The notes beneath the pieces were generated by a model. It was not told where the DNA came from. It did no database searches and saw only the letters and a list, made by a program, of their open reading frames with translations. Both the position numbers and the translations under genes were made by a program. 64,000 nt of DNA from Candidatus Thiodiazotropha sp. LNASS1 (GTDB lineage Bacteria > Pseudomonadota > Gammaproteobacteria > Chromatiales > Chromatiaceae): the NCBI RefSeq assembly GCF_964212655.1, contig NZ_OZ156465.1, positions 4,092,001-4,156,000 on the forward strand, given 5' to 3'. Below are positions 20,139-42,917 of this stretch, piece by piece. Numbering within the stretch: position 1 is the first letter of the stretch; each line of letters starts with the position of its first letter.

Positions 20139-20215
<77 letters not shown>

Positions 20216-25930: not shown

Positions 25931-25938
25931 AGGAGCGG

Positions 25939-26844: not shown

Positions 26845-27748
26845 AGCCGTTACTGCCAATATTGTGGATAACAGCGGGAAACCAGGCGTGCGGCGTGTAA
26901 CATCACGTTACATTCCCGGGCCGGGTCAACCGGGTGTGGTGGAACAGAGTCCTGTAGTCGTTGAAGACGCCTTGACGTTGGATGTCGAGGCAATCGGTAC
27001 TTATACCCTGATGTGGACGCCTACCGATAATGTGCAACTTATGGCTAGCGGGTATCTTTCAGGGCATGGCCTGCTGAGCGAGGAGGTTCCCAGTGCGGCA
27101 CTTTCACTAGCTGCGGGTTTTGCCTTCACGGAAGGCTTGATTCAAAACCTGGATGATGTCGAGAGCCTGGCGGTATGTCCGGACAAGCCGGGCATCGTGC
27201 GCATGAAGCTCAAGAGTCCGGAAACGGTAGAAACACGAAGGCGCAACTTGGTGATGACGAGCTCCTGCGGGATATGCGGAAGCAGGGAAGTGGTCGAAAA
27301 CAATACCTTTGGCCTGAATAACGTACCTGATCGAATGCGACTGATGGGTAGGGGGGTCGCAGAACTGATGGAGGAGATGCGGCAGCGACAGGCCATTTTC
27401 GATGAGACAGGCGGTGCGCATGCGGCAGCTGTGTTTACTTCTGATGGGCGTATTCATGCTGTAGCCGAAGATCTTGGGCGACACAATGCCCTGGACAAGG
27501 TTATCGGGGCTACTCTGCTGAACGGCGAAGGGTTCAAGGCACGAGGTGTTCTGCTATCCAGTCGCCTGAGTCTGGAGATGGTGACCAAAGCGGTGCGCGC
27601 AGGTCTGGAAATTGTTGCTGCAGTCAGTGCGCCGACTTCATTGGCGATAGAAGTGGCGGAACGGTTTGGTGTGACCCTGTGCGGCTTTGTACGCAAAGGG
27701 CGCTTGACGATTTATTCCCATCCACATCGAATCGATCCGTTAGGGTGA
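26801..27748 (+). CDS. fdhD: Formate dehydrogenase accessory sulfurtransferase FdhD
   Basis: Transfers sulfur to the bis-MGD cofactor of formate dehydrogenase-type molybdoenzymes. The 315-residue protein has the sulfur-carrying pair C156-G-I-C159 in SSCGICGSREV, then AAVFTSDGRIHAVAEDLGRHNALDKVIG, SSRLSLEMVTKA and LCGFVRKGRLTIYSHP, all family landmarks. ATG 26801 has AGG eight bases upstream; GTG 26795 is a weaker option. Its linkage to 22698-26844 supports a Cys-ligated, sulfurated Mo centre in that enzyme. The N-terminal stretch of about 50 residues is longer than usual. Confidence 0.93.
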   Translation: MSPKLALQPVLACTRAVTANIVDNSGKPGVRRVTSRYIPGPGQPGVVEQSPVVVEDALTLDVEAIGTYTLMWTPTDNVQLMASGYLSGHGLLSEEVPSAALSLAAGFAFTEGLIQNLDDVESLAVCPDKPGIVRMKLKSPETVETRRRNLVMTSSCGICGSREVVENNTFGLNNVPDRMRLMGRGVAELMEEMRQRQAIFDETGGAHAAAVFTSDGRIHAVAEDLGRHNALDKVIGATLLNGEGFKARGVLLSSRLSLEMVTKAVRAGLEIVAAVSAPTSLAIEVAERFGVTLCGFVRKGRLTIYSHPHRIDPLG

Positions 27749-27958
27749 TGGGTGTCTGCCGGTAACAGCAATTGTTGGCTACATTAACCAGGCGCTGACT
27801 GCGTATTCCTTTCCATTACACGATGCATGACCGGCTTCCTTGAGAGTCAACTTGTTCACCCTGGCGTTCAAGACGCTATCAGGCGTGATTAATAGTATTC
27901 ATTTATAGTCCGCACTGCTGGCTGATTCGAGCGGATGTCAACATAGAGGAACCTGCAG

Positions 27959-28636
27959 ATGTCTGATTCGTTGCCGATTGTCGCCGTATTAGGTGGTACA
28001 GGTGATCTGGGTGGTGGTTTGGCTTATCAATTGGCCAAAGCCGGTTATCCGGTCATTATCGGATCCAGGGGTGAGGAGAAGGCCAAGGCTTCGGCAAAAG
28101 CCATGTCGGATCGGGTCGGGACATCGGTAGACGGTAGAGAAAACAGCGCTGCCGCGACAATTGCCGATGTGGTCATAATGACGGTTCCTTTTGCCAGTCA
28201 CGACAGTACCTTGAAAAGTGTCCGTGATGCGGTCCAGGGTAAGATATTTGTTGATGCCACCGTACCCCTGGTTCCACCAAAGGTAGCACGCGTCCAGCTC
28301 CCGGCGGATGGGCCGGCGGCTAAACAGTCCCAGATGTTGTTGGGTGAAAATGTTCGTGTCGTTTCCGCCTTTCAGAATATCGCAGCTACGCATTTGCAGT
28401 CAGACGATGGTCATCATAACGAATGTGATGTGTTGGTTTCAGGTAATGACCCGGAGGCACGGGATATGGTGGTCAAGCTTGCCAGGGATATTGGTTTGCG
28501 TGCTTGGCATGCGGGGGCAATCGACAATTCCGCTGTAGCCGAGGCGTTGACTTCGGTACTGATATTCTTAAACAAGCGCTACAAAATCAACGGTGCGGGT
28601 TTACGTATTACCGGCGAACCTGGTTCGGCAGTTTAA
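27959..28636 (+). CDS. NADPH-dependent F420 reductase (Fno/NpdG-like)
   Basis: A 225-residue Rossmann protein that would transfer hydride between NADP(H) and coenzyme F420. The N-terminal nucleotide loop GGTGDLGGG (residues 12-20), the NADP-phosphate pocket [26 protein letters not shown] and VSAFQNIAA match the archaeal Fno family. Proteins of this family occur in F420-free organisms, but here cofE, cofD, cofC and an F420-type oxidoreductase lie within 13 kb, which strengthens the call. It begins 12 bases before etfB, so it is probably co-transcribed with it. Confidence 0.82.
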
Positions 28637-28647
28637 GGGATTGGCTG

Positions 28648-29397
28648 ATGAAAGTACTGGTAGCTGTTAAAAGAGTTGTTGACTACAACATCAAGGTCCG
28701 TCCAAAAGCGGATGGATCAGATGTTGAGATAGCCAATGCAAAAATGTCCATGAATCCGTTTGATGAAATAGCCGTGGAAGAGGCGGTGCGAATGAAAGAA
28801 GCGGGTAGCGCTACAGAGGTGGTTGCTGTCTCCCTTGGTGAGACGGCATGCCAGGACATTGTCCGTACGGCGCTTGCCATGGGGGTGGATCGCGGCTTGC
28901 TGGTGGAGACCGATGAACGGTTGGAACCTTTGACTGTCGCCAAACTGCTTGTTGCTATCGTGGAGAGAGAGCAGTTCGATCTGGTTATTCTCGGTAAGCA
29001 GGCGATCGATGACGACAGTAACCAAACCGGTCAAATGCTGGCGGCGCTTTTGGGCTGGCCCCAGGCTACTTTCGCATCCCAAGTTCTGGTCGACGGTGAT
29101 CGGGTGCAGGTTACACGAGAGACAGATACCGGCAGCCAAACCCTCTCTTTTCAGCCGCCGGGCGTGGTGACCTCCGATTTACGCTTGAACGAACCGCGCT
29201 ATGTCAAATTACCGAATATTATGAAGGCCAAGAAAAAGCCCCTGGATAAGATCACGCCGGCAGAACTGGGTGTCGATATATCAGCTCGATTGGAGATTCT
29301 CTCTGTAGCTGAACCGGTACAGCGCAGTGGAGGCATCAAGGTTTCCGATGCAAAAGAGCTGGTGGAGAAACTCAGAAATGAAGCAAGGGTGATTTAA
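28648..29397 (+). CDS. etfB: Electron transfer flavoprotein subunit beta
   Basis: The 249-residue AMP-binding subunit of ETF, the electron acceptor for acyl-CoA dehydrogenases. The N-terminus [17 protein letters not shown], the signature [18 protein letters not shown] and the C-terminal [21 protein letters not shown] are typical. ATG 28648 is chosen; the frame is open upstream but the extension does not match the family. It is followed two bases later by etfA. Confidence 0.96.
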
Positions 29398-29399
29398 TC

Positions 29400-30344
29400 G
29401 TGACGATACTGGTTATCGCTGAACACAATAACAGTGAACTCAATGCTGCAACCCTGGCGGCAATCACTGCTGCGACTCAAATAAGCGATTCAGTCGATCT
29501 GCTGATCGTCGGCAATGGCTGTTCGTCGGTAGCCGAGAGCGCCGCGAGAGTACGGGGAGTGAGTCGTGTGGCATTGGCGGATGCCCCGGAATATGAGCAT
29601 CAGCTGGCGGAAAATGTCGCTCCATTGGTCGTCAGACAGGCTGAAGGATATACGCATCTGCTGATGCCGGCCACTGCTAATGGAAAGAACCTGATGCCTC
29701 GCGTGGCAGCACTGCTGGACGTGGCTCAGATATCAGACATTATCGCGATTGAATCGAGTGACTGCTTCCGACGTCCGATCTACGCGGGAAACGTCATCGC
29801 CACCGTGCGCTCGAAGGACCCGCTGAAGATTGTCACTGTACGTGCAACCGCCTTCGAGCCGGCCGTTGCAGAAGGTGGTAACGCACTCATTGATCAGATT
29901 GAGGCGAGCGGGGATACGGGCCTTTGCCGCTGGGATGGAGAGGAGCAGAGTGAATCGTCGCGGCCGGACTTGACTCAGGCCGAAGTGGTGGTCTCCGGCG
30001 GGCGCGGTTTGGGCAGTGCGGAGAATTTCCATCTGCTCGAGACCCTCGCCGACAGGCTTGGTGCGGCGATTGGCGCATCCCGCGCAGCCGTGGATGCGGG
30101 TTTTGTTTCTAATGATTTGCAAGTAGGACAAACCGGCAAGGTGGTTGCCCCCAAACTCTATATAGCTGTCGGTATTTCCGGTGCCATACAACATTTGGCC
30201 GGAATGAAGGAGAGCAAAGTGATCGTGGCTATCAACAAGGACGAGGATGCCCCCATATTCCAAATCGCCGACTATGGCATCGTTGGCGACCTGTTCGACA
30301 TCTTGCCTGCCTTGTTGGCTGAACTTGAACGGAGTGTTAATTGA
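29400..30344 (+). CDS. etfA: Electron transfer flavoprotein subunit alpha
   Basis: FAD-binding partner of EtfB, 314 residues, GTG start. The C-terminal FAD domain shows [53 protein letters not shown] and [25 protein letters not shown] (landmarks [22 protein letters not shown]). It would pass electrons from acyl-CoA dehydrogenases such as the one at 41656 to the ETF-quinone oxidoreductase encoded next. Confidence 0.96.
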
Positions 30345-30424
30345 ATCTGCCTTGCGGGGCAAAAAAAAGCGGGTCTTGGCAGTGATGATCAAATGCATGT
30401 TAACAGGCCCTAAAGCCGGAGCCT

Positions 30425-32080
30425 ATGATGCAACGTGAGAGCATGGAATATGATGTAGTCATCGTTGGCGGTGGTCCGGCAGGATTGGCTGCTGCAATAC
30501 GATTGCGCCAACTTGCCATGGCACAGAAAAGGGAACTCTCCGTATGTGTGCTTGAAAAAGGCGCTGAGATTGGTGCGCACATACTGTCAGGCGCTGTCAT
30601 CGATCCCTGCTCACTCGATGAATTGATTCCCGATTGGCGAGAGCAAGACGCACCTCTGACCACAGAGGTCAATCATGATCTTGTCTATTTTCTGCGGAAT
30701 GGGGAGAAGGCGTGGCAGGTGCCGAAACAGTTTGTCCCCGCCTCAATGCACAATCGAGGCAATTACATAGCCAGCCTGGGTAATCTATGTCGTTGGCTGT
30801 CTGAACGGGCAGAGACACTGGATGTCGATATATTTCCCGGATTTTCGGCTGCCGAGGTGCTTTACGGTGAGCATGCTGAAGTGGCTGGTGTCATCACAGG
30901 CGATATGGGATTGGCCGAAGATGGCAGTAAAAAGCCAAGTTTCGAGCCCGGTATGGAATTGCGCGCAAAATATACTCTGTTTGCAGAGGGTGCACGTGGT
31001 CACCTGGGTCAGCAGTTGGTCGTCAGGTATCAACTTGATGCCGGCGTGGGCGCACAGCACTATGGGCTGGGATTAAAGGAATTGTGGGATTGCAGTCAGC
31101 AAAAACATCAACAGGGATTGGTCATCCACGGCTCGGGTTGGCCATTGTCAGAGAGCGGCAGTGGTGGTGGATTCTTTCTGTATCACCTTGAGGACAACCA
31201 GATCAGTGTGGGCCTGATCGTCGATCTGAATTATCAGAACCCTTATGTTAATCCATACGAGGAGTTTCAACGTCTGAAACAGCACCCATTGCTCAAAGGT
31301 TATCTGACCGGTGGCCGCCGGGTGGCCTATGGCGCGCGTGTCATAAACAAGGGCGGTTTTCATGCCTTGCCCACCATGCACATGCCTGGGGCGCTTTTGA
31401 TCGGATGCGATGCAGGCACCCTCAACTACGCCAAGATCAAAGGCACCCATACGGCAATGAAGTCCGGCATGCTGGCTGCTGAAACAGTGTTCGAGTCTCT
31501 TGCTGAAGGGGGTCGGGGCGGAGAAGATCTGTACGCTTTTAACGATCGCTTCAAGGCATCCTGGCTTTGCGATGAGTTGTATCGCAGCCGCAATTTCGGC
31601 ACGGCACTGAAGAAATGGGGTTTATACTTCGGAGGGGCATACAATTATCTTGACCAGACCCTGTTTGGCGGCAAGTTTCCCCTGGATCTGCATGATGACA
31701 CAGAAGACCGCGACACCCTGAAACACGCGGCTGACTGCAAACGGATCGACTATCCTAAACCGGATGGCGAGATCAGCTTCGATCGACTCTCTTCAGTCTA
31801 TCTCTCCAATATCAGTCACGAAGAGGACCAGCCCTGTCATCTCAGATTGCAGGATAGTGTCGTTCCATTGGAAATCAATCTGGGACGTTACGATGCCCCT
31901 GAACAACGTTACTGTCCGGCCGGGGTCTATGAGATTCTCGACATGGAAGAGGGCCCCCAACTTCAGATCAACGCGCAAAACTGCATCCATTGCAAGACCT
32001 GCGATATCAAGGATCCTACCGCCAATATCACCTGGGTGACGCCGGAAGGCGGTGGGGGACCGAATTATCCGAATATGTGA
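30425..32080 (+). CDS. etfQO: Electron transfer flavoprotein-ubiquinone oxidoreductase
   Basis: Monotopic membrane flavoprotein of 551 residues that oxidises reduced ETF and reduces quinone. FAD binding VVIVGGGPAGLAAA lies near residue 10. GAHILSGAVIDPCSLDELIP, the quinone-site region, and the C-terminal [4Fe-4S] ferredoxin domain (RYCPAGVYE and CIHCKTCDIKDPTANITWV) are seen. GGAG at 30418 suits ATG 30428 as well as 30425. With etfBA it links acyl-CoA oxidation to the respiratory chain. Confidence 0.96.
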   Translation: MMQRESMEYDVVIVGGGPAGLAAAIRLRQLAMAQKRELSVCVLEKGAEIGAHILSGAVIDPCSLDELIPDWREQDAPLTTEVNHDLVYFLRNGEKAWQVPKQFVPASMHNRGNYIASLGNLCRWLSERAETLDVDIFPGFSAAEVLYGEHAEVAGVITGDMGLAEDGSKKPSFEPGMELRAKYTLFAEGARGHLGQQLVVRYQLDAGVGAQHYGLGLKELWDCSQQKHQQGLVIHGSGWPLSESGSGGGFFLYHLEDNQISVGLIVDLNYQNPYVNPYEEFQRLKQHPLLKGYLTGGRRVAYGARVINKGGFHALPTMHMPGALLIGCDAGTLNYAKIKGTHTAMKSGMLAAETVFESLAEGGRGGEDLYAFNDRFKASWLCDELYRSRNFGTALKKWGLYFGGAYNYLDQTLFGGKFPLDLHDDTEDRDTLKHAADCKRIDYPKPDGEISFDRLSSVYLSNISHEEDQPCHLRLQDSVVPLEINLGRYDAPEQRYCPAGVYEILDMEEGPQLQINAQNCIHCKTCDIKDPTANITWVTPEGGGGPNYPNM

Positions 32081-32100
32081 GCCGATGATACCTGCCTGGA

Positions 32101-33246
32101 ATGTCTATGACCAAGCGTAATCTTCCGTTGGCCGGATTTAAGGTCCTGGATCTTTCACGCATCCTTGCAGGGCCCTGGTGCACTCAATTATTTGGCGACC
32201 TTGGGGCGGAAGTGATCAAGATCGAGAGTCCCGAAGGTGATGGCACACGTCAGTGGGGACCGCCATTCTTCGATGGCAAATCGGCCTATTATCTCTCTGC
32301 GAACCGAAATAAAAAGTCTCGGGTGCTGGACTTCAAGAATCCCGGCGATCTGGCGGTACTGAAGGGATTGCTGCAATCTGCAGATGTGCTGATCGAAAAC
32401 TTCCGTGCCGGTACTTTGGACAAGTTCGGTCTGGATGGAGCATCAGCGCTCAAGCTCAATCCGCAACTGATCTATTGTTCGATCCACGGATTCGAACAGT
32501 GCAGTGACTGGGGAGCCAAGCCGGGATTCGATGCGCTGATCCAGGCCATGTCAGGTTTGATGAGTATCACCGGAACCGAAGAGGGTGAGCCGGTCAAGGT
32601 TGGGGTGGCTATCAGTGATATATTGGCTGGGCTCTATGCCGGTAATGCGATTCTTGCTGCATTGCTGGAACGTCAACACTCCGGGCGGGGACAGTTGATA
32701 GAGATACCCCTGTTCGATACCCAGGTGACCTGTCTGGCCAATGTGGTTTCAAACTTCCTCACCAGTCGCGAGGTGCCGAAGGCATTGGGTAGCGCCCACC
32801 CCAATATCGTACCCTATCAGTGTTTTGCAACGCTTAGCCAACCGGTGATGATTGCGGTGGGGACTGATAAGCAGTTTGCCAGTCTGTGTCAGGTGATGGC
32901 TGTGGACTGGCATCAACAGGATGATTACCGAACCAACCCCCGGCGGGTGGAAAATCGTCATCGGCTGGTGCCCCTGATCCAGGCTTTGATGTTGACCCGC
33001 ACCCGGGACGAGTGGCTGGCTATTTTTTCTGCCGGTGATTTTCCGCACGGCCCGGTCAACGATCTGGGTGATCTCTATGATCATCCCTATACCAAGGAAT
33101 CCGGTTTATTCTTAACGCTGGATGACGGTCGTACACCCGCCGTGCGCAATCCGATCAGATTCTCCAGAACCCCTCTGGATCGGTATGAGTCACCGCCGGA
33201 GTTGAACGGGCATCCGGATGCCAAGTTTGATTGTCTCGACGAATGA
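32101..33246 (+). CDS. CaiB/BaiF (class III) CoA-transferase
   Basis: Moves CoA between carboxylic acids by way of an aspartyl-CoA anhydride. The 381-residue protein begins LPLAGFKVLDLSRILAGPWC and has LGAEVIKIESPEGD, DVLIENFRAGTLDKFG and the likely catalytic Asp144 in PGFDALIQAMSG. Succinyl-CoA:glutarate CoA-transferases belong to this family. With glutaryl-CoA dehydrogenase at 41656 that is an attractive but unproven role. The stop overlaps the next gene by ATGA. Confidence 0.92.
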   Translation: MSMTKRNLPLAGFKVLDLSRILAGPWCTQLFGDLGAEVIKIESPEGDGTRQWGPPFFDGKSAYYLSANRNKKSRVLDFKNPGDLAVLKGLLQSADVLIENFRAGTLDKFGLDGASALKLNPQLIYCSIHGFEQCSDWGAKPGFDALIQAMSGLMSITGTEEGEPVKVGVAISDILAGLYAGNAILAALLERQHSGRGQLIEIPLFDTQVTCLANVVSNFLTSREVPKALGSAHPNIVPYQCFATLSQPVMIAVGTDKQFASLCQVMAVDWHQQDDYRTNPRRVENRHRLVPLIQALMLTRTRDEWLAIFSAGDFPHGPVNDLGDLYDHPYTKESGLFLTLDDGRTPAVRNPIRFSRTPLDRYESPPELNGHPDAKFDCLDE

Positions 33247-34187
33247 AAAAAGAGACCCAGACTGTCCCGGTTTCGTGCATGCGTGGTGCGCAACTGCCAA
33301 TCCCACTGGCCCATACCTACTTAGTGCTGACCGCTTTTTTTCTTGCCAGCAATCATGTCATTGGACGTGGTGTGCATGATGTCATTCCACCGGTGGGCCT
33401 CAATTTCTGGCGCTGGACAGCCGGGGCACTGATCCTGCTTCCCTGGGTCTTGAAGGGCGGTTCACCCGTCCGTGTGTTTCGTGGGAATATAACCACCTAC
33501 ATCCTGTTGGGCGGCTTCGTGACACTCAGCACCATGTTGATTCTGATAGCACTTCGCACAACCACTGCCGTCAATGTCTCTGTTATCAGCGTATTTCAAC
33601 CCATACTGACAGTTATCATCGCCGCTACCTTTCTGGGTGAAAGGTTACGAACAGTACAACTTGCGGGCATCTTTGCCGCCTGTACCGGCGTCGCTGTCAT
33701 GCTGTTTCACGGTAGCTGGTCGGCTGTCCTGGAGCTTGAAATCAATAGTGGTGATCTTTTGACCTTGTTGGCGGTATGCGGATTCTCTGCCTATGCCATC
33801 AATGTCTCCAGGATACCTTTAGAATTGAGTTCCCTGGAATCCCTCTTCGGCATTATCGTTACCGGTTGTATTATTCTGCTGCCTTTTTATCTGGTGGAAA
33901 CAATCTGGTTTATGATCATGCCGATGGATTTGGCTACTGTTGGCGTGGTTTTGGTGCTGGCGCTGACAGTCTCGGTTTTTGGCATGTTGATGTGGAACCA
34001 AGGTAACCAGGCTGTGGGTCCCAGTCGCGCTGCGGTATACCTCAATCTCATTCCTGTGTTTGCCGCAATCCTGGCTGCAGTTTTCCTGGGAGAGCATGTG
34101 TATTGGTTCCATTGGCTTGGAGCGGGTTTTATCGGTCTGGGAATCTGGCTGGTGGTGAAACGGGTGGGTAACGGCGATGGTAAATGA
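33243..34187 (+). CDS. DMT-superfamily transporter (EamA domains)
   Basis: A 314-residue inner-membrane protein with about ten helices in two EamA repeats (about 15-150 and 165-300). FLASNHVIGRG, PPVGLNFWRWTAGALILLP and TAVNVSVISVFQPILTVIIAATFLGERL mark the first repeat; AVGPSRAAVYLNLIPVFAAILAAVFLGEH (landmark LIPVFAA) marks the second. Such proteins usually export metabolites or amino acids. The ATG overlaps the CoA-transferase stop, so the two are co-translated. Confidence 0.87.
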   Translation: MKKETQTVPVSCMRGAQLPIPLAHTYLVLTAFFLASNHVIGRGVHDVIPPVGLNFWRWTAGALILLPWVLKGGSPVRVFRGNITTYILLGGFVTLSTMLILIALRTTTAVNVSVISVFQPILTVIIAATFLGERLRTVQLAGIFAACTGVAVMLFHGSWSAVLELEINSGDLLTLLAVCGFSAYAINVSRIPLELSSLESLFGIIVTGCIILLPFYLVETIWFMIMPMDLATVGVVLVLALTVSVFGMLMWNQGNQAVGPSRAAVYLNLIPVFAAILAAVFLGEHVYWFHWLGAGFIGLGIWLVVKRVGNGDGK

Positions 34188-34737
34188 AGATCTGCGGAAA
34201 GAGAGCGATCCTCCTGTCAGTATCATGATGTCACGCATGCCGTTGCCTGGAAAAGAACAGGAATTCGAGACATATCTCAATGGGATCACCGAGGCCGCCC
34301 AACGTCAGCCCGGGCATTTGGGGGTGAGTATCATTCGTCCCTCGGGTCAGGAGAGAAATTACTATATCCTGTTCAAGTTCGATAGACGATCAAACCTTGA
34401 ACACTGGGAAAAATCTGATGAACGGGCCCGTTGGCGCAGCATCGCCAAACAGGTCAGCGAGAAGCCGAAGCGTCATATGGTAACCGGCCTCGAAGCCTGG
34501 TTCACTTTACCGGATCAGGCAATGGTGGCACCTCCCCCTCTTTATAAAATGGCTGTGTTGGCATGGTTGGCGATCTATCTTTTGATCAGCGGTCTATTAT
34601 GGTTGATAGGACCGTTACTTGAACCCCATCCTCTGATGTTGCGTACCCTGATTCTTACCGGAATTGCGGTACCCCTCATGACTTTTCTGCTTATGCCATT
34701 GCTCACCCGGATCTTCAAAAACTGGTTGTATTCGTAA
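34177..34737 (+). CDS. Antibiotic-biosynthesis-monooxygenase (ABM) domain protein with two membrane helices
   Basis: A 186-residue protein. Residues about 10-100 form a dimeric alpha/beta-barrel ABM domain (VSIMMSRMPLPGKEQEFE, PGHLGVSIIRPSG, YYILFKFDRRSNLEHWE). Residues about 123-185 hold two hydrophobic helices separated by a short loop. ABM-type domains occur in quinone-forming monooxygenases and heme-degrading enzymes, but many have no known activity. The start lies within the 3' end of the DMT gene. A membrane-bound ABM next to redox genes could act on a hydrophobic or quinonoid compound; this is inference. Confidence 0.78.
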   Translation: MVNEDLRKESDPPVSIMMSRMPLPGKEQEFETYLNGITEAAQRQPGHLGVSIIRPSGQERNYYILFKFDRRSNLEHWEKSDERARWRSIAKQVSEKPKRHMVTGLEAWFTLPDQAMVAPPPLYKMAVLAWLAIYLLISGLLWLIGPLLEPHPLMLRTLILTGIAVPLMTFLLMPLLTRIFKNWLYS

Positions 34738-34910
34738 CAGAAAACCATCCCAGGCCGCATCGCTTCGTCCTGTCTGAATGCTCTTGTGGTCAATTGGGGT
34801 GCGTTCAGGTCTAAGAGTCGACAACAAAGCTTGCATATACTCAGGCAGAACTCATTCGTTTATGCGATTCAGCAACCCGTGGTGATAGACCTGGAAGAGA
34901 CGCCTATTTT

Positions 34911-35939
34911 ATGTCTGTCTCATTTGAAATCGGTATCTTACCCAATCGGCCGGTCAGTGAGTGTTTATCGTTGTCCGGGCAAGCCGAGGAGTATGGCTAT
35001 GGAGGGGTCTGGATTGCCGATTCCCAATGTGTAATGCGGGATGCCTACATACTGCTCTCGCAGATTGCGTTACAGACTTCCCGCATCCGGGTGGGCTCCG
35101 GGGTAACCAATGCCATCACCCGGCATCCTGCAGTACTGGCCAACAGCTGGGCAACCTTGCACGAAGTGTCCAATGGAAGAGCGATACTGGGTATCGGTGT
35201 GGGCGAAAGTGCCGTTCATACCCTGGGATTCAAACCTGACCGCCTGGCGGCCCTGGAAAATAAGATCACGCTGTTGCGGGCATTGATGAAAGGGCAGGAG
35301 GTGGAATATCAGGGATGCCGTTTTCACCTGGCCTGGTGTGATGTGACGGTGCCCATCGTCATGGCCTGTTCAGGTCCAAAATCCCTGCAACTGGGTGGCA
35401 GAGTTGCCGACGGCGTGCTGTTCCAGGTGGGAGCCGATCCTGCATTGGTGCGATATGCACTGGATAACATACGCCAAGGTGCTGAACAGGCGGGACGAAG
35501 GTTTGAAGAGATTAAACTGTATATGCGCGTCGCAACGGCAGTCTCACCACATCGGGATATGGCCCGGGATCAGATCAAGGGATATGCCTCGGTAGCCGCC
35601 GGGACAGTCTTCAAAACAGTTCCTCGTGAGTATTTTTCTGATGATTTGTGGAGCCAGCTCGAAGAGTTTAAAGCGAAATATGACTACTTTGAGCACGGTA
35701 GCAATCGGGCCAAACACCAGGCACTGTTGACCGACACGATTATTGATACTGTCTGTATCGCAGGTTCTCCGGAAGAGACGATTCCTCGCTTTAAGGCCAT
35801 AGCGGATATGGGTGTCGACGCCTTTGTGTGGCCGGCCAATATGGAGGATGCGGGGCATTTTATTCAAACGTTCGCCGATCGGGTGATGCCGGCGTTTGCT
35901 GCCGAGGGTCAGGCGATTACAAAGCAGGTGAAACGGTAA
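34911..35939 (+). CDS. F420-dependent LLM-class oxidoreductase (Mer-like)
   Basis: A 342-residue luciferase-like TIM-barrel protein. The N-terminus SFEIGILPNRPVSECLSLSGQAEEYGYGGVWIAD, the segment TSRIRVGSGVTNAITRHPAVLANSWATLHEVSNGRAILGIGVGES (landmarks GSGVTNAITRHP and LGIGVGES) and CSGPKSLQLGGRVADGVLFQVG (landmark GGRVADGVL) resemble methylenetetrahydromethanopterin reductase and glucose-6-phosphate dehydrogenases that use F420. LLM proteins may use FMN instead; linkage to cofEDC favours F420. The stop overlaps the next ATG (TAATG). Substrate unknown. Confidence 0.85.
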   Translation: MSVSFEIGILPNRPVSECLSLSGQAEEYGYGGVWIADSQCVMRDAYILLSQIALQTSRIRVGSGVTNAITRHPAVLANSWATLHEVSNGRAILGIGVGESAVHTLGFKPDRLAALENKITLLRALMKGQEVEYQGCRFHLAWCDVTVPIVMACSGPKSLQLGGRVADGVLFQVGADPALVRYALDNIRQGAEQAGRRFEEIKLYMRVATAVSPHRDMARDQIKGYASVAAGTVFKTVPREYFSDDLWSQLEEFKAKYDYFEHGSNRAKHQALLTDTIIDTVCIAGSPEETIPRFKAIADMGVDAFVWPANMEDAGHFIQTFADRVMPAFAAEGQAITKQVKR

Positions 35940-37018
35940 TGAACAACAACGAGAAGATGTTGGCAAGCGATGCTTTAGGATCCCGGTTATTTGTCATCGG
36001 CGGGATGTTGCTGATCGTAGCAGGGATGATTTTCGGCGATCTGTACGCTGTGTTCATATTGCATCCCAATGTGGATCGGATCTCAGCGGCTTTGGCAGGC
36101 GCCGCTTCGGCGATATCGAGCCATGACGTTGACACGGTGTGGCGGAATTTCGCTCAACTCGGCGGCTACCTTGAAAATGCCGGGACCAAGAAGGATACCC
36201 ATGTTCATATTATCCAGGTTGGTTACCTGGCACTGCTGTTAGCGTTTCTGCAATCCCGGGTTCGTTTGAATGATCGTTTGAAAGTAGTGCTTGCACGCCT
36301 GTTTTTGGCTATGGCCGTGGTGTTGCCGGTATCCATTTTTCTGATTCACTATGTTGGCCTGGTCTACAGTCCGTTGGAAAGCATCGGATGGGCCAGCATC
36401 AGCGCTGACCTCTCTGGATTGATTTTGGCCTTCATTGTCCTGATTCAGCTATGGGGGCTCATGGGAAGTGCAAGGAGTCGACCTGAGGCAGCTCCCTTCT
36501 CTCCCTCATTGGGTGAAATCGGCTGGCTGTTACTGAAGGGTGGGGCTGTGTTGGTCCTGCTTGGGTTTTTATTTGGCGCCTGGTACGCAGGGGTGCAAAT
36601 GCAAACGCATGAAGCACGCGAACTGGTCACCCTGAAAGAGATCATCGGGCAGGCGCATGGTGCGGATCAGGCAGCTACCGATCAATCCCTTCTGGCCTAT
36701 GGCCGGTTACAGGGAGAGCGGGCGGTGTCTATAGCTGCTCATGCCCATATGGTGGAATTCGGCATTTTGGCGATGATGACATCGTTGATCCAGCCGTTCG
36801 TCTATTTGTCCCTGGCCTGGCGCCGCCGCATGGCTGTGTTGTTGCTCACCGGTGGAGCCTTGTTGCCGGTTGCCGTCTATGCCGAGATCTGGTTTGGATT
36901 ATTGGCAGGCGGGGTTGCGGATATTGCCGGTTTGCTGGTCATCATCGCATTGACGGGTATGTTGGCGGGAGTCTTGCGTCATACGGGAGCCCTCGATAGC
37001 CAAGGGAGCCAAGCCTGA
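35939..37018 (+). CDS. Membrane protein with two copies of a His-motif repeat, unknown function
   Basis: A 359-residue integral membrane protein, not recognised as a named family. It looks like two copies of one unit of about 160 residues. Each has a first helix ending in an aromatic stretch (MIFGDLYAVF; FLFGAWYAGV), a polar loop, a helix opening with a paired His (H88-V-H90 IIQVGYLALL; H268-A-H270 MVEFGILAMM), then two helices (VVLPVSIFLIHYVG; ALLPVAVYAEIWFG). The His pairs at helix starts resemble heme ligands of oxidase-like proteins. ATG 35939 overlaps the LLM stop and the stop overlaps the next gene, so it belongs to the F420 operon. Confidence 0.75.
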   Translation: MNNNEKMLASDALGSRLFVIGGMLLIVAGMIFGDLYAVFILHPNVDRISAALAGAASAISSHDVDTVWRNFAQLGGYLENAGTKKDTHVHIIQVGYLALLLAFLQSRVRLNDRLKVVLARLFLAMAVVLPVSIFLIHYVGLVYSPLESIGWASISADLSGLILAFIVLIQLWGLMGSARSRPEAAPFSPSLGEIGWLLLKGGAVLVLLGFLFGAWYAGVQMQTHEARELVTLKEIIGQAHGADQAATDQSLLAYGRLQGERAVSIAAHAHMVEFGILAMMTSLIQPFVYLSLAWRRRMAVLLLTGGALLPVAVYAEIWFGLLAGGVADIAGLLVIIALTGMLAGVLRHTGALDSQGSQA

Positions 37019-37515
37019 TGAGCGCTACACAAAAACTCTTGACCTTAGCCGGCCTGGGTCTGGTCGCAATCAGTATGCTGTATGGTTTTTATTACGCCGT
37101 GTTCGATGAACATCAGACACTGGAAAAGATCGGTTTCTCTATGGCCAATGGTTTTGCCAAGGCGGCAGAGGGCGATCTTGCTGCGGCACAGACATCCCTG
37201 CAAGCCTATGCCGAAATCCGAATTGAGTATCTTCGGGAAGTGCACGGCCATGGCCATATGGCTGCGTTGGGCACCTTACTGATACTGATGGGGTTGTTTA
37301 TTGATCACGTTATCAGGTCGCAGGCAAAGCGCTTATTGATTTCGTGGATGATGGTTGTTGGTGCGGTTTTGTTGCCGCTCGGTGCATGGCTCGATGTTTT
37401 AGTGCGGGCCCCTGTTCCTAAAGTGTTATCCGTGGCCGGTGCCTCCTGTCTTGTGCTGGGTATGGTGGGCGTGATTTTCAGCCTGTTATTCACCGCAACT
37501 GAAAACAATGATTGA
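37018..37515 (+). CDS. Membrane protein with one copy of the His-motif repeat, unknown function
   Basis: A 165-residue protein with four predicted helices. It is built like one unit of its upstream neighbour: helix ending MLYGFYYAVFDEH, a polar loop, then H76-G-H78-G-H80 MAALGTLLILMG, and VGAVLLPLGAWLDVLV. The shared order (aromatic YAVF, His cluster opening a helix, then LLPxG/V) indicates common descent. It may pair with the 359-residue protein to give a three-unit complex. ATG overlaps the previous stop by one base. Confidence 0.75.
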   Translation: MSATQKLLTLAGLGLVAISMLYGFYYAVFDEHQTLEKIGFSMANGFAKAAEGDLAAAQTSLQAYAEIRIEYLREVHGHGHMAALGTLLILMGLFIDHVIRSQAKRLLISWMMVVGAVLLPLGAWLDVLVRAPVPKVLSVAGASCLVLGMVGVIFSLLFTATENND

Positions 37516-37526
37516 GGTGTTCGGCC

Positions 37527-38411
37527 ATGAGCAGGCATCTTCTGCTTGGCTTCCGAGCCTTTGATGCCCATGAGCTGCTGTGTCATTTCGCAGCCAGAGA
37601 GGCCGGTTACTATCAGAGCAGGGGATTGCGCATCTCACTACGGGATTTGACGTTTGATGGCCGGGCGCAGTCCTCGTTGCCATGTTTAAGTACTGCTTGT
37701 GCGGCGGGTCTGATGGAAATCCTGCAAGGGGTGGAGAGGCGATTGCTCTTGGTCGCCATGCGGCGACCGCTGTTCTGGCTTTACGGAGGATCCAACACAG
37801 AGAAGCTGGAGCAACTGGATGGTGGGCGGATTGCCGGCTATGTTGATTCTTCACCGCCTGCCCGTTTTTTAACCTGGAGACTGGCTGATGTTTCGTTTGA
37901 TCAATATCCTGCCATCGATCCCGTGCGCGACGATCTGATGCGTCTTGGCTTGTTGTTGTCGGGGGAAGTTGATGCCGGCCTGTTCAGTTCTGCCGTGAGT
38001 CCTGCCTATTTGGAGGAGTTGGGCCTGAATAATCTGATCTCACCAGCTGACTTGCCGGAGTTTCCCACAACGGGTCTGACCACAGAGCGTTGGGTGATAG
38101 AGCGTTTTCCCGAATTGGTGGACGATATGGTGGCAGCCCATGCCGAAGCGATAGCGCTGTTACATGATGATGATTTCCTGGCTTCGGTGTTAGAACAACT
38201 CAACATACTGGGTGGTTCAGCCGGACTGACTTCAAACCTTCGCCGCGCATTGACTGATGATGGGCGTATTGCCGAAACATTTGATCAATCCCCACTCCTG
38301 AGGCACCTGGCTCACAGCATGTGCAGAGAGACTATAAAACCCGATTCCTCGACAATTTTTGATTTTACAGCCTTGAACAGGTTTCTTGAGTCGAATCATG
38401 ATTGCCCATAA
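37527..38411 (+). CDS. NMT1/THI5-like periplasmic-binding-fold protein lacking a signal peptide
   Basis: A 294-residue protein with the outline of the NMT1/THI5 substrate-binding fold: LLLGFRAFDAHELLCHFAAREAGYYQSRGL at the N-terminus (landmark AREAGYYQSRGL), then LSTACAAGLMEIL and a C-terminal helical region. No signal peptide is seen and no ABC permease lies near, so transport is unlikely. Cytosolic members of this fold include thiamine-precursor and menaquinone-pathway enzymes. ATG 37527 is favoured over TTG 37512. It sits between the His-motif membrane proteins and cofE in the same overlapping run. Function unknown. Confidence 0.7.
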   Translation: MSRHLLLGFRAFDAHELLCHFAAREAGYYQSRGLRISLRDLTFDGRAQSSLPCLSTACAAGLMEILQGVERRLLLVAMRRPLFWLYGGSNTEKLEQLDGGRIAGYVDSSPPARFLTWRLADVSFDQYPAIDPVRDDLMRLGLLLSGEVDAGLFSSAVSPAYLEELGLNNLISPADLPEFPTTGLTTERWVIERFPELVDDMVAAHAEAIALLHDDDFLASVLEQLNILGGSAGLTSNLRRALTDDGRIAETFDQSPLLRHLAHSMCRETIKPDSSTIFDFTALNRFLESNHDCP

Positions 38412-39171
38412 CAATCATCACAATATTCAATTCCTGGCACTGGGTAATATCCCGTTAATCATGCCGGGGGACGATCTGGCATCGATTCTAGTAACAGCCA
38501 TGCAGGATCACGGACCGGCATGGCAGGATAAGGATATCCTGGTGGTCGCTCAAAAGATCGTCTCCAAGGCGGAGGGGCGATACGTAAAGTTGGACAGGGT
38601 GCAGCCCTCTGCCGAGGCCCTTCGTTTGGCTCAGGTGTGTTTAAAAGACCCACGCCTGGTGGAATTGATACTCAGGGAATCGCTGTATGTGGTGCGGGCA
38701 GTGCCCCATGTGTTGATTGTCAGGCATCGTCTCGGTCATGTCAGCGCAAATGCCGCTATCGACCACTCCAACATAGATGACGGTCATCAACAGGTATTGC
38801 TTTTACCCGAAGACCCGGATGCCAGTGCACATGCCTTGCGGGAGAGTATTAAGCAACAGACTGGCCTTACCCTCGGTGTGGTAATCAATGACAGCTTCGG
38901 CAGGCCCTGGAGGATGGGTACCTGCGGTGTATGCATCGGTAGCTCAGGTATTGTGACGTTAAAGGATTATAGGGGTGCGCAGGATCTATCGGGTCAACCA
39001 CTGGAGGTAACCGAAGTGGCATGGGGGGACGAATTGGCAGCAGCGGCTTCCCTGTTGATGGGGGCTGCCAACGAGGGCAGGCCTGCAGTGATCGTTCGTG
39101 GTCTTTCCATCACTGGCTCGGGAGACAGCAGTGATTTAATCCGTCCATTGGACAAGGACCTTTTTTTATAA
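38398..39171 (+). CDS. cofE: Coenzyme F420-0:L-glutamate ligase
   Basis: Adds glutamates to F420-0 using GTP. The 257-residue protein shows KDILVVAQKIVSKAEGRYVKL near residue 40 (landmark VVAQKIVSKAEG), HVSANAAIDHSNID, VVINDSFGRPWRMG and GDELAAAASLLMGAANEGRPAVIVRG (landmark ELAAAASLLMG), all CofE features. It is single-domain and lacks the C-terminal nitroreductase-like domain of mycobacterial FbiB. A TTG at 38386 could extend it by four residues. The stop overlaps the cofD ATG. Confidence 0.93.
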   Translation: MIAHNNHHNIQFLALGNIPLIMPGDDLASILVTAMQDHGPAWQDKDILVVAQKIVSKAEGRYVKLDRVQPSAEALRLAQVCLKDPRLVELILRESLYVVRAVPHVLIVRHRLGHVSANAAIDHSNIDDGHQQVLLLPEDPDASAHALRESIKQQTGLTLGVVINDSFGRPWRMGTCGVCIGSSGIVTLKDYRGAQDLSGQPLEVTEVAWGDELAAAASLLMGAANEGRPAVIVRGLSITGSGDSSDLIRPLDKDLFL

Positions 39172-40133
39172 TGTCGCAAAACAAAAAAAAGTATCTGGCA
39201 CTTTGTGGTGGTGTCGGTGGCGCGAAACTGGCATTGGGTTTAAGTCGGGTGCTTGAACCCGGTTGTCTTACCATCGTGGTAAACACCGGTGATGATTTCG
39301 AGCATCTGGGGCTATTGATATGCCCAGATATAGACACTGTCACATACACTTTGAGTGGAGTGGTTGAATCCCGGCAAGGATGGGGAAGGGCGGATGAAAG
39401 TTGGAATGTGCTCGATCAGGTTGAGCGACTGGGCGGTGAGACATGGTTTCGCCTGGGTGATAAAGATATTGCCTTGCACCTGGTGCGTCGTTCGTTGCTG
39501 GCACAAGGGCTCTCCCTGAGTGAAGTGACTGCACGCATCACGCGATCACTGGCGATCGATCATGCAATCATCCCCATGAGCGATGACCCGATACGAACCG
39601 AAGTAGTGGTGGATGGCGGTGTGATGTCATTCCAGCATTACTTCGTCAAAAAGCGTTGCCAGCCCAGGATTTTTGGTATTCGATATGACGGAGTGGAGAA
39701 GGCGAAAACCTCATCAGGTTTTATCGGCGCATTGAATGACAAGGAACTGGCCGGCGTGATTATCTGTCCGTCAAATCCCTTTTTAAGTATCGATCCTCTG
39801 CTGGCATTGCCGGGTGTCAGTGAGTTATTGCGAACGTTATCAGTCCCGGTCGTTGCAGTCTCCCCTATCGTTGGCGGTCGGGCGATCAAAGGGCCAACAG
39901 CAAAAATAATGCAAGAGCTGGATATGCCGGTAACACAGGAGGCCATTGCGGATCACTATCAAGGTCTGGTTTCGGGGCTGATGATCGATTCAGTCGACAA
40001 GGCGACAGCCTCAGAACTGAATAAGAGATTGGCCGTGCACACGAGTGATACCGTGATGACAAACACCACGCAGAAAGTCGCCTTGGCAAATCAATGCCTG
40101 GCATTCATTGATTCCCTGGATAAGAGCTCATGA
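39171..40133 (+). CDS. cofD: 2-phospho-L-lactate transferase (F420-0 synthesis)
   Basis: Joins the activated phospho-acid to Fo to make F420-0 or a dehydro form. The 320-residue protein begins KKYLALCGGVGGAKLALGLSRVL, the CofD/FbiA nucleotide loop, and has VVNTGDDFEHLGLLICPDIDTVTYTLSG (landmark NTGDDFEHLGL), FRLGDKDIALHLVR and IICPSNPFLSIDPLLALPG (landmark CPSNPFLSIDP). Start overlaps cofE by one base and the end overlaps cofC by four. Confidence 0.96.
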   Translation: MSQNKKKYLALCGGVGGAKLALGLSRVLEPGCLTIVVNTGDDFEHLGLLICPDIDTVTYTLSGVVESRQGWGRADESWNVLDQVERLGGETWFRLGDKDIALHLVRRSLLAQGLSLSEVTARITRSLAIDHAIIPMSDDPIRTEVVVDGGVMSFQHYFVKKRCQPRIFGIRYDGVEKAKTSSGFIGALNDKELAGVIICPSNPFLSIDPLLALPGVSELLRTLSVPVVAVSPIVGGRAIKGPTAKIMQELDMPVTQEAIADHYQGLVSGLMIDSVDKATASELNKRLAVHTSDTVMTNTTQKVALANQCLAFIDSLDKSS

Positions 40134-40837
40134 GTGAGATTTGGGCCTTGGTGCCACTGAAAACCCTGGCGCAAGTTAAGAAACGCCTCGCACCTGCGCT
40201 GACTGCGGAATTACGCAGAGAATTGGTGCTGGCAATGGCACAAGATGTAGTTTCAGCACTGCTTGGTGTTGATCTCATCACACGTGTCTTGCTGGTAACC
40301 AATGAATCGAGTGCAACGCATTCATTCACAGCCATGGGAGCGGATATTTTTGAACCTGAACGGTTGGGGGAGTTGAATCCGGAACTGGAGCAGGCGGCAG
40401 CTTATGCGAAATCACAGGGCGCCGAAGTGGTTCTGATAGTCCACGCTGACCTGCCCTTGCTGACCGCATTGGCTGTGCGGGAGTTCGTTACTACTGCTTC
40501 ACCCGCTATTCCCAAGGCAGCGGCCTGTAAAGCCGGTGCCGGAACCAATTTGTTGCTAACGGGTCTCCCACTGAAATTTCCGCTTGTTTTTGGATGCGAC
40601 AGCCTGAGTGGCTTCAGACAAAAGTTTACTGCGCTTAACAGGAAAATGGATGTGGTCATGCATCCATTGCTCGCCTTGGATATTGATACGCCGGATGATT
40701 TGCAAACTCTCTTGAGTAAAATCAAAAAGGGTGATCCTGTTGGAAAAGCAACAAAAGAACTATTACTCAGGGAAACGCTTGATCGGGATAAGATTATGAT
40801 GGAAACCAAGCGCTGGAGATTTACACGGACCTGTTAA
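40130..40837 (+). CDS. cofC: 2-phospho-L-lactate (or related) guanylyltransferase
   Basis: Activates 2-phospholactate, phosphoenolpyruvate or 3-phosphoglycerate with GTP for CofD; which one cannot be read from the sequence. The 235-residue protein begins EIWALVPLKTLAQVKKRLAPALTAELRREL, with the NTP-binding VPLK...KxRL signature. It then has VLIVHADLPLLT and a C-terminal LALDIDTPDDLQTLL. It is the last gene of the overlapping operon and converges with thiS 24 bases downstream. Confidence 0.94.
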   Translation: MSEIWALVPLKTLAQVKKRLAPALTAELRRELVLAMAQDVVSALLGVDLITRVLLVTNESSATHSFTAMGADIFEPERLGELNPELEQAAAYAKSQGAEVVLIVHADLPLLTALAVREFVTTASPAIPKAAACKAGAGTNLLLTGLPLKFPLVFGCDSLSGFRQKFTALNRKMDVVMHPLLALDIDTPDDLQTLLSKIKKGDPVGKATKELLLRETLDRDKIMMETKRWRFTRTC

Positions 40838-40861
40838 CAGAACCTGGTGAAAAGAATGAGG

Positions 40862-41062
40862 TTAGCCTCCGCCTAACATTTGAAAAGTCATTACTGCGTC
40901 ACCCTCTTTCAACTTACACTCAGACCAAGTTTGGTTACAGACAATCCGGTTGTTTAATGCAATTACCGTGTTGGGCTCGAATGGGGGTAGTTGCTCGATC
41001 AAGCTGGCAAGAGATGTATTGTCCGGCAGTTGATGGGGCACGTCGTTCAGGGTGATATTCAT
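40862..41062 (-). CDS. thiS: ThiS-family sulfur carrier protein
   Basis: A 66-residue beta-grasp protein ending in the diglycine tail MLGGG, where sulfur is loaded as a thiocarboxylate. The N-terminus MNITLNDVPHQLPDNTSLASLIEQL and the strand VIALNNRIVCNQTW match ThiS rather than the longer MoaD. No thiG, thiF or moeB lies beside it. It is transcribed toward cofC. It could serve thiamine synthesis, or supply sulfur to one of the local molybdoenzymes; the latter is speculation. Confidence 0.85.
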   Translation of the reverse strand: MNITLNDVPHQLPDNTSLASLIEQLPPFEPNTVIALNNRIVCNQTWSECKLKEGDAVMTFQMLGGG

Positions 41063-41655
41063 GGGATGACCATACCGGCTGGATATTATGTAGGATGGAT
41101 TACCTCATATTAGGACTTGTTGTATTAGATATTAATATACTAGTAGTTGGAAAAAACGTCTATACAATTGGCCGCTTGTCCACATAAATGAATTCTAAGC
41201 GTGATGATAAGTCGATAGCAAAACCCTTCGTCTACAGAATCCTGTCACCATGCAGGAAATGCACAAAGACAGTGACTGTTCTGTCATTTAATCAGATACA
41301 CGGATGGCATGGAAGGTGCATTCTACAGCCTATTCAGGCTGGTAATCAGAATCTGTTGCACTACTAGTCAATGGCCACGCTTTGTCAGGCAAGACGGTTT
41401 TGCAATGCCAAAATAGGCTGAACTAAAGAGCCCTTTGTTGAATAAAATTTCCTTGGTGTTTTTTTCAGCGGCTCGAGTAATGCGTTAGTGGTGCTGTTGG
41501 AGGTGTATCTGCTAATCGTTGCCTCGCTATTACCTAATCAGTACCAGGTGTAGGAAAATCCATTGAAGAAAGATGCTGTTTTTTGTCCTTTCTCTGGGAT
41601 TGATCGTAACAGGTATTAGGTTACCTCAGTTTTTAAATTGCCGGAGATTCTTGCT
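41063..41655. other. Gene-free stretch upstream of glutaryl-CoA dehydrogenase
   Basis: About 590 bases between two divergent genes, AT-rich around 41101-41200. No credible ORF, RNA gene, terminator or strong promoter was recognised. It must hold the divergent promoters for thiS (minus) and the acyl-CoA dehydrogenase (plus). GGAG at 41643-41646 serves the downstream start. Confidence 0.55.
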
Positions 41656-42831
41656 ATGGCCGCCCTGCCCAATTGGGACGATATATTTCTTCTTGAGAAA
41701 CAACTCGATGCTGATGAGCGCCTGGTTCGCGACACAGCGTATGAGTATTGCCAGGATAACCTCATACCAAGAGTGCTGAGCGCCAATCGGGATGAACGTT
41801 TCGATCAAGAAATACTTTCTGAGATGGGTGAGCTGGGTCTTCTGGGTGTAACGATCGATGGTTACGGTTGTGCTGGGCTGAACTATGTCAGTTATGGTCT
41901 TATTGCCCGCGAAGTTGAACGGGTGGATTCGGGTTATCGCTCTGCGATGAGTGTGCAGTCAAGCCTGGTCATGCATCCAATCAATGCTTATGGCAGCGAA
42001 GATCAAAAAGCGAAGTATTTGCCCAAGCTTGCGACAGCTGAGCTGATCGGCTGTTTTGGGCTTACAGAGCCGGATGCCGGGTCAGACCCAGGCGGAATGA
42101 AATCACGGGCAAAAAAAGTGGATGGCGGTTATCGTCTCAACGGTAGCAAAACATGGATCACCAATTCATCCATTGCTGATTTGTTTGTGGTCTGGGCGAA
42201 GGATGATGAGGATGTGATACGAGGCTTTCTTCTGGAGAAGGGTATGCAAGGATTGAGTGCACCCAAGATAGATGGCAAGTTCAGTCTGCGTGCATCCGTT
42301 ACCGGAATGATCATGATGAATGATGTATTCGTACCGGACGAAAACGTTTTTCCCGAGATAACTGGTCTAAAGGGGCCTTTCGGCTGTCTCAATCGGGCCC
42401 GTTACGGAATTGCCTGGGGTTCCATGGGTGCTGCCGAAGCCTGCTGGCATGCCGCCCGCCAATATACCCTGGAGCGTAAACAGTTTGGTCGCCCTCTTGC
42501 CGCCACCCAGTTGGTGCAAACCAAACTCGCCAATATGCAGACAGAGATCGCACTTGGATTGCAAGCGGCGCTAAGGGTTGGCCGGATCATGGATGAAGGG
42601 ATGTGGGATCCCACCATGATTTCGCTGATCAAGCGCAATAATTGCGGAAAGGCTTTGGACATCGCGCGTCACGCAAGAGATATGCACGGTGGTAACGGTA
42701 TTGCCGATGAATACCATGTGATCAGGCATATGATGAATCTTGAGGCGGTTAATACCTACGAAGGCACCTATGACATTCATGGATTGATCCTAGGTCGGGC
42801 GCAGACAGGTATTCAGGCTTTTACCGGGTAG
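41656..42831 (+). CDS. gcdH: Glutaryl-CoA dehydrogenase
   Basis: FAD enzyme that oxidises and decarboxylates glutaryl-CoA to crotonyl-CoA and CO2, passing electrons to ETF. The 391-residue protein carries [25 protein letters not shown] (landmarks [11 protein letters not shown] and [11 protein letters not shown]), whose Glu, Arg and Ser match substrate-carboxylate residues of human GCDH, plus [13 protein letters not shown] and the catalytic base Glu369 in [20 protein letters not shown] 41656 gives the usual N-terminus [16 protein letters not shown]. etfBA, etfQO and a CaiB-type CoA-transferase lie upstream. Confidence 0.94.
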
Positions 42832-42917
42832 CTTTCGATTTGGACAGTTGTACTGGATGGTTGAGGCCGGTTACGGCGGATATCCATCGATACTGAAACC
42901 ATGACTGGAGAGCGACT

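Follow-up and report, generated by a model that had tools for sequence, protein, structure and literature searches.

Coenzyme F420 genes on a putatively acquired, probably catabolic island of Candidatus Thiodiazotropha sp. LNASS1

The window analyzed here, a stretch of 64,000 nucleotides of Candidatus Thiodiazotropha sp. LNASS1, corresponds to bases 4092001–4156000 of a single-contig genome of 4,746,093 bases (100% complete, 0.08% contaminated) and carries genes for the synthesis and likely use of the rare coenzyme F420, which lie within a gene island of about 78 kb. Families were called with NCBIfam models and their curated cut-offs, domains with Pfam. A first-pass annotation, made from the sequence alone, had recognized cofE, cofD and cofC, and each encoded protein indeed scores above its cut-off: the F420-0:gamma-glutamyl ligase CofE (38386..39171, 261 amino acids; TIGR01916, 263.2 bits, cut-off 180.65), CofD (39171..40133; TIGR01819, 285 bits, cut-off 257.45) and CofC (40130..40837; TIGR03552, 128.1 bits, cut-off 105), all on the plus strand and overlapping by one base (CofE/CofD) and four bases (CofD/CofC). 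CofE is a single-domain protein, in which PF01996 (residues 22–239 of 261) is the sole Pfam match and a nitroreductase domain is absent. CofC retains the metal-binding Asp residues in the alignment and displays a Gly at the position diagnostic for 3-phosphoglycerate (3PG). The Fno-like gene proposed upstream is found as well: NpdG, an NADPH-dependent F420 reductase of 225 amino acids (27959..28636, plus strand; TIGR01915, 202.7 bits, cut-off 149.8), has the reduced F420:NADP oxidoreductase 5n2i as its closest solved chain (E 2.1e-38). Judged by the length of the open frames and the family-specific scores, the F420 gene frames are not a product of chance.

The cof genes terminate a tight run, which is opened by the gene of LLM1 (34911..35939, plus strand; PF00296, 201 bits), an apparently F420-type luciferase-like oxidoreductase (LLM) related to Mer, and continues with two membrane proteins and a protein of unknown family. 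The earlier description of a single overlapping run thus holds in that cofE, cofD, cofC and the LLM gene share one run, but three unnamed genes separate the LLM gene from cofE; npdG is situated outside the run, 6.3 kb upstream of the LLM1 gene. The Fo synthase, expected elsewhere in the genome, is located 31 kb past the end of the window and 54 kb from cofC, within a run of catabolic genes. It is an FbiC of 799 amino acids from its ATG (genome C1:4186916-4189315, window-equivalent 94916–97315) with two radical-SAM halves, and both CxxxCxxC motifs were identified by eye in the translation. A genome search with TIGR03550, which scores the CofG half only, returned one match over the cut-off, namely this protein (440.7 bits, cut-off 213.35). 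The genomic part of the refutation proposed in the first-pass annotation, a complete genome devoid of Fo synthase, therefore does not apply, and its interpretation is supported.

A second protein of the luciferase-like family, LLM2 (genome 4183344–4184441, window-equivalent 91344–92441), is encoded 2.5 kb upstream of fbiC. LLM1 and LLM2 account for both PF00296 matches of the genome, and both lie inside the island. The best solved chains for LLM1 are Mer (E 1e-39). The 25 best of the 31 NCBIfam matches to LLM1 are led by F420-type models, with 211 bits versus about 46 for the best flavin mononucleotide (FMN)-type model; for LLM2 the values among the best 25 models are 167 and about 46 bits. 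Both proteins accordingly look nearest to F420-type families (Mer and others) and not to FMN-type ones. Together with NpdG, the two apparently F420-type proteins in the same island support the previous suggestion that F420 is used and not only made. Since the F420-type scores stay below the cut-offs, the exact reaction of LLM1 is not named. Plasmid-borne relatives of LLM2 (22 records, all of haloarchaeal genera; 26–30% identity in the 15 matches listed) were set aside, and a search for FDOR enzymes (PF04075), in which the control was silent, was uninformative.

None of the three unnamed genes that separate LLM1 from cofE gave a Pfam or NCBIfam match. The first membrane protein (35930..37018, plus strand) is composed of two repeated units and the second (37018..37515, plus strand) of a single unit of the same repeat, which makes three such units in total, with a His-x-His pair conserved in every one; the two proteins possibly form a haem- or metal-binding redox unit. 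This pair is present in 2 of 369 genomes of the class, LNASS1 and G042 (see below), both times in the F420 cluster. The third protein (37512..38411, plus strand, 294–299 amino acids) overlaps cofE, evolves fast (61% identity to the copy in the same-genus genome G003; ratio of nonsynonymous to synonymous divergence, dN/dS, 0.265) and was found in only one of 398 phylum genomes, that of LNASS1 itself. Assignment of the three proteins to known folds was abandoned, the PDB having yielded no useful match for the pair and none below E 0.6 for the third protein.

In coordinates of the window extended past 64000, the island spans 22527..100740 (window part 22527..64000, end at genome C1:4192740), with no strand assigned to it as a whole, and comprises 62 genes collinear with G003:C2:635519-717304. 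It holds fbiC, fno, both LLM genes, a transhydrogenase, two molybdenum (Mo)-hydroxylase sets and two Ame-like RND modules. Each gene from MoOR-A through HBDH is matched by a collinear gene of G003, with dN/dS values of 0.009–0.265 (0.093–0.123 for cofE, cofD, cofC and fbiC), and the G003 copies of fbiC, cofC, cofD, cofE and npdG are free of internal stops. Stops do occur in the aligned stretch of five of the 62 counterparts (EtfB, AraC2, YCF48b, HMGL and MBL1). Those in the first four fall within the first 38 residues and may reflect over-long starts; for EtfB, where the start was moved from the listed open reading frame (ORF) start 28504 to 28648, the stops of the G003 copy are confined to the upstream extension.

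The island occupies different sites in two lineages of the genus. In LNASS1, the similarity to related genomes ends at or soon after a tRNA-Met gene (20139..20215, plus strand) following nuoN, namely at 20217 in G009, 20235 in G015, 20261 in G004 and G003, and 20266 in G019, and the island is placed, together with one radical-SAM gene, between nuoN/tRNA-Met on one side and a response-regulator gene at 101413 on the other. The G003 genome has the same nuoN/tRNA-Met and the response-regulator region within 11 kb, and its island copy starts about 177 kb away, flanked by a polyhydroxyalkanoate (PHA)-synthase gene (PF07167) and a crotonase gene (PF00378). This second site was seen at its left end in one metagenome-assembled genome (MAG; G003) and at its right end in two, G001 having the same right end as G003. 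The 20 kb downstream of nuoN in G009, G015, G004, G019 and G003 contain no island gene at 1e-30. A search for an empty site at the G003 position was uninformative, since 11 genomes yielded nothing at 1e-50 for the left-flank PHA synthase; att repeats of the tRNA were dropped as element ends, none having been found. The radical-SAM gene (20422–21834; B12-binding; PF02310, PF04055, PF13282) situated between tRNA-Met and island is absent from the G003 island and all fetched loci.

Presence of the genes is patchy. Within the genus, 4 of the 21 genomes encode CofD (LNASS1 included), and it was found in none of 14 additional members of the family. One draw of 21 other genomes of the class gave 3 carriers, and an even sampling across the class gave 15 carriers among 369 genomes (LNASS1 included). 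FbiC accompanies it in 6/6 CofD-positive versus 0/13 CofD-negative genomes searched; the sister genome G009 lacks both. The remaining carriers of the genus, G001, G003 and G011, are Ca. Thiodiazotropha MAGs, which supports the gammaproteobacterial origin assumed in the first-pass annotation. Between LNASS1 and G003, the synonymous divergence (dS) has a median of 0.90 for the 62 island genes versus 1.445 for a set of 12 core genes spanning folP to nuoN (Mann-Whitney p 4.8e-4, treating genes as independent although neighbors are not), several values being near saturation and those near or above 1 rough. Given the differing sites in two lineages and the patchy presence, with an overall dS below that of the core genes but core-like values for cofE, cofD and cofC, acquisition or exchange is the likeliest origin of the block, either into the genus or from one of its lineages to another. 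A segment at extended positions 72528–79187 (L010:9528-16187), with genes for DUF3179, methyltransferase, MobA-like, NnrS and OsmC proteins, differs from G003 by a dS of only 0.24–0.38, which suggests recent exchange or recombination between lineages.

Alternatively, the island could be ancestral to the genus and have been lost many times, with the two sites arising from later rearrangement. The nucleotide identity of the island between LNASS1 and G003 (75–90%) brackets that of the nuoN region (84.7%), the dS of cofE, cofD and cofC equals that of the core, and the CofD proteins of the four carriers form one clade, as would be expected in this case. However, in a NuoN tree (18 sequences, one gene) the carriers occupy two places, LNASS1 as sister of G009 and G003 with G001 and G011, so that a single gain would need about five losses on this one gene, and neither the overall dS below that of the core nor the differing sites fit well. 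Vertical inheritance is considered rather unlikely, although it is the main rival of acquisition or exchange.

Trees of CofD and CofE had been proposed as a test for transfer, and transfer into the genus from another class did not emerge from them. A donor outside the class was considered because, in the presence of G328 and the Variovorax sequence, a single gammaproteobacterial CofD clade is rejected (p-AU 1.8e-46); this was discarded, as such a clade is not rejected without these two rows (p 0.651). The CofE tree rejects one gammaproteobacterial clade (4.8e-10) on a set which includes G328. The CofE of G328 (465 amino acids) was also examined as a fusion with a nitroreductase and dismissed: F420_ligase covers 222–441, no other Pfam family matches at E 0.01, and its N-terminal portion seems to be an extension read in the wrong frame.

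Further genes of the island suggest a catabolic role. At its start (22698–27748), a molybdopterin oxidoreductase with iron-sulfur and NrfD subunits and FdhD is encoded, whose best NCBIfam model is PhsA, below the cut-off, and which is strongly conserved in G003 (96.6% for the A and 98.5% for the B subunit). Downstream of npdG follow, on the plus strand, the electron-transfer flavoprotein (ETF) subunits EtfB (28648..29397; PF01012, 138.4 bits) and EtfA (29400..30344; PF01012 and PF00766), an ETF:quinone oxidoreductase (ETF-QO; 30425..32080; PF05187 and PF21162) and a CoA-transferase of family III, CaiB/BaiF (32101..33246; PF02515, 393 bits). A PntAB transhydrogenase lies at extended positions 85338–88294. 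In addition, there are two DUF1302/DUF1329/YCF48/MMPL sets, which are Ame-like, and two Mo-hydroxylase sets, the large subunit of the second being recognized by similarity alone, as well as members of the M24, ArgE/DapE, PuuE-like, FAH, HMGL, ApbA, acyl-CoA dehydrogenase, CoA-transferase and 3-hydroxybutyryl-CoA dehydrogenase families. An attempt to name the substrate was given up: for acyl-CoA dehydrogenase, MBL1, M24, FAH, HMGL, ArgE/DapE and the PuuE-like protein (110.7 bits, cut-off 424.6), none of the models listed reaches its cut-off, and ApbA1 and 3-hydroxybutyryl-CoA dehydrogenase pass subfamily cut-offs only. ArgE/DapE has no plasmid match at 1e-40.

Counterparts of 21 of the 62 island genes were found on three contigs of G042, a 75% complete genome from another family of the class. 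Two additional matches there, DUF1329b and XdhL, are not part of this number, as they hit paralogues of genes that it already contains. Contig 49 carries LLM2 (83% identity over 147 residues), FAH (63%), ArgE/DapE (77%) and FbiC (63%) in this order. Contig 256 begins with FbiC (60%), a cyclase-family protein (PF04199), HMGL (67%) and ApbA2 (69%) and proceeds to ApbA1 (75%), M24 (75%), YCF48 (49%), MMPL (65%) and DUF1302 (55%). Contig 210 combines DUF1302, DUF1329, the two membrane proteins (48% and 40%) and a Cox-type Mo-hydroxylase (65–71%) with Fno (48%), CofE (49%), CofD (49%) and CofC (31%). The catabolic enzymes are hence 63–83% identical, versus 31–63% for the F420 proteins. The cyclase-family protein occupies the position of the island PuuE-like protein, and we infer that both cleave C-N bonds. 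In both genomes fbiC is located inside the catabolic run, and this shared gene company provides the best indication that F420 may serve the catabolic set. An uncultured gammaproteobacterium (L007:1420-11624) has cofE, cofD and cofC near an acyl-CoA dehydrogenase (74%), EtfB and EtfA (65% and 64%) and ETF-QO (66%) that resemble the island proteins.

Similar cassettes reside on proteobacterial plasmids, examples being Aromatoleum aromaticum EbN1 plasmid 2, Sinorhizobium meliloti pSymA and a plasmid of Leisingera. In six of seven plasmid stretches, cofD is close to cofC, cofE, npdG and either FbiC or CofG plus CofH, as in the island set; this count includes S. meliloti, whose unannotated cofE was detected by similarity search. 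An LLM gene, a further likeness, is found in five of the seven. However, the biosynthesis genes of the plasmids mostly stand together, in contrast to the 78 kb block with FbiC 54 kb from cofC. On the Leisingera plasmid (L102:1245-9967) PntAB genes adjoin the F420 genes, with 56–57% identity to the island PntA and PntB, hinting at a recurrent supply line from NADH via NADPH to F420. In Aromatoleum, a gene of the pyridoxamine 5'-phosphate oxidase family precedes the cassette (L097:2196-2786). Split-barrel proteins of this type include F420 users, and the encoded protein may be one there.

Three routes to the F420 side chain have been described, starting from 2-phospholactate, from phosphoenolpyruvate with a reductase of the nitroreductase fold, or from 3PG; the source of 2-phospho-L-lactate, a lactate kinase (CofB), is an unidentified enzyme according to a 2021 review (PMC8498797). 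The 3PG route is marked by Ser or Thr at CofC position 162 in Mycetohabitans numbering, as reported in PMC8764529. LNASS1 and all other gammaproteobacterial CofC proteins aligned (12/12, LNASS1 included) have a Gly here, as do 6/6 plasmid-borne proteobacterial ones, in an alignment which left out G042, G051 and other carriers and in which the G328 row was not counted. With Gly instead of Ser, 3PG is not the predicted precursor. The complete genome gave no PF00881 match at E 0.001 with 14/14 controls positive; with a CofE that has no nitroreductase domain, LNASS1 thus lacks the dehydro-F420 reductase known from other systems. Taken together, these results leave three options: use of 2-phospholactate, an unrelated reductase, or dehydro-F420 as the working cofactor. 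An unrelated reductase may be encoded in the island itself, LLM1 and the three unnamed genes upstream of cofE being candidates. The absence of PF00881, together with the identity of only 64–67% between the CofC proteins of the carriers, could also indicate a broken pathway, in which relic genes yield at most Fo or an unstable dehydro-F420. Such decay is highly improbable, considering the intact G003 copies and low dN/dS values given above; moreover, a nitroreductase gene near cofD is likewise listed in none of the seven annotated proteobacterial plasmid stretches, in PLSDB gene tables that are incomplete. The Thermomicrobium stretch does list one.

On the basis of family knowledge, a working pathway can be outlined. 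FbiC would form Fo, CofC would activate a three-carbon phosphoacid with GTP, CofD would join the activated phosphoacid to Fo and CofE would add glutamate. NpdG would reduce F420 by means of NADPH, which the island PntAB could supply from NADH, and LLM1 and LLM2 would transfer a hydride from F420H2 to the substrate. The tetrapartite RND modules may handle a hydrophobic compound, which would be oxidized by the Mo-hydroxylases and reduced by the LLM proteins. C-N hydrolases (M24, ArgE/DapE and PuuE-like) and C-C hydrolases would open and trim it, and the acyl-CoA enzymes with ETF and ETF-QO would complete its breakdown into the quinone pool. An F420-type cofactor is probably made and used in one catabolic programme, both encoded on a probably acquired island of about 78 kb. 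Directly observed are the genes, their linkage, their joint patchy occurrence and the constraint on them, from which cofactor production, catabolic role and substrate class are deduced. The neighboring genes tentatively point to a hydrophobic, nitrogen-containing and probably cyclic compound as substrate class. The more far-reaching proposal of a self-contained, previously undescribed F420-dependent pathway for such a compound, including its own cofactor synthesis and with dehydro-F420 either reduced by a non-nitroreductase enzyme or used unreduced, is speculative and rather doubtful.

Fo itself might instead be the main product, serving a photolyase or being exported, with the LLM proteins acting as FMN enzymes. 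For Mycetohabitans, which lives in symbiosis with Rhizopus, Fo has been reported to act as a symbiosis factor (PMC11104420), and the nearest named relatives of the LNASS1 genome are clam-symbiont MAGs, the genus having been described to include sulfur-oxidizing symbionts of lucinid clams. However, cofC, cofD, cofE and npdG are under purifying selection though unneeded for Fo alone, and LLM1 and LLM2 resemble F420-type families most closely, which makes a main role of Fo improbable.

Several observations weigh against an acquired island on which F420 is made and used. The saturation of the F420 side chain is unaccounted for, and neither LLM1 nor LLM2 reaches any cut-off among its best 25 NCBIfam models. 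Most catabolic proteins are assigned to broad families only, and 41 of the 62 island genes are without counterpart on the three contigs examined of the incomplete G042 genome. The MBL1 copy of G003 is interrupted by a stop at residue 144 of 316. With regard to acquisition, no repeat of the tRNA 3' end was found at the far end of the island, no integrase was evident by eye among the ORF translations, on which integrase models were not run, and the CofD and CofE trees show no source outside the class. The dS values of cofE (1.46), cofD (1.39) and cofC (1.87) are core-like and, as noted, rough at this level.

The 2021 review lists the Alpha- and Betaproteobacteria as groups in which F420 has been confirmed biochemically; the word Gammaproteobacteria is absent from its main text, and it lists as an open question why Proteobacteria make F420 (PMC8498797). 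As symbiotic producers among Gram-negative bacteria, a paper of 2024 names only Ca. Entotheonella factor and M. rhizoxinica (PMC11104420). No paper joining Thiodiazotropha and F420 was found in the open-licence papers searched, and genomic mentions may exist elsewhere. The missing reductase or 2-phospholactate source is reported to be lacking in archaea too (PMC6450877), and the absence of PF00881 provides a clean genome case for finding either. Both this question and that of why Proteobacteria make F420 become directly testable. With both synthesis and the candidate users identified to date restricted to a single island, the question to be answered is what the island degrades.

The island can be compared with several known systems. 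Mycetohabitans rhizoxinica, a Gram-negative symbiont producing 3PG-F420, has the gene set found here, FbiC-CofC-CofD-CofE, and the 3PG-type chain 7p97 is the closest solved chain to the LNASS1 CofC. However, the diagnostic position is a Ser in M. rhizoxinica and a Gly here. In the degradation of picrate and dinitrophenol, two LLM hydride transferases pair with Fno. Their use of F420 in Actinobacteria is covered by the 2021 review, according to which P. rhizoxinica has no known F420-dependent enzymes (PMC8498797). The picrate and dinitrophenol clusters and the island both place Fno and two LLM proteins in a catabolic cluster, but the island shows no nitroaromatic sign and has Mo-hydroxylases, ApbA, M24, ArgE/DapE and RND modules as partners. 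The DUF1302/DUF1329/RND (Ame) set has been reported to raise the tolerance of Castellaniella to hydrophobic monoterpenes (PMC6394551). As in Castellaniella defragrans, a DUF1302 outer-membrane protein, a DUF1329 periplasmic protein and an RND pump are encoded in a catabolic island, which in LNASS1 differs by two copies of the set, YCF48-type proteins and the presence of F420 genes. Proteobacterial F420 cassettes are already known; what is new is a probably exchanged catabolic island in a clam-symbiont genus, combined with a clean absence of the known reductase.

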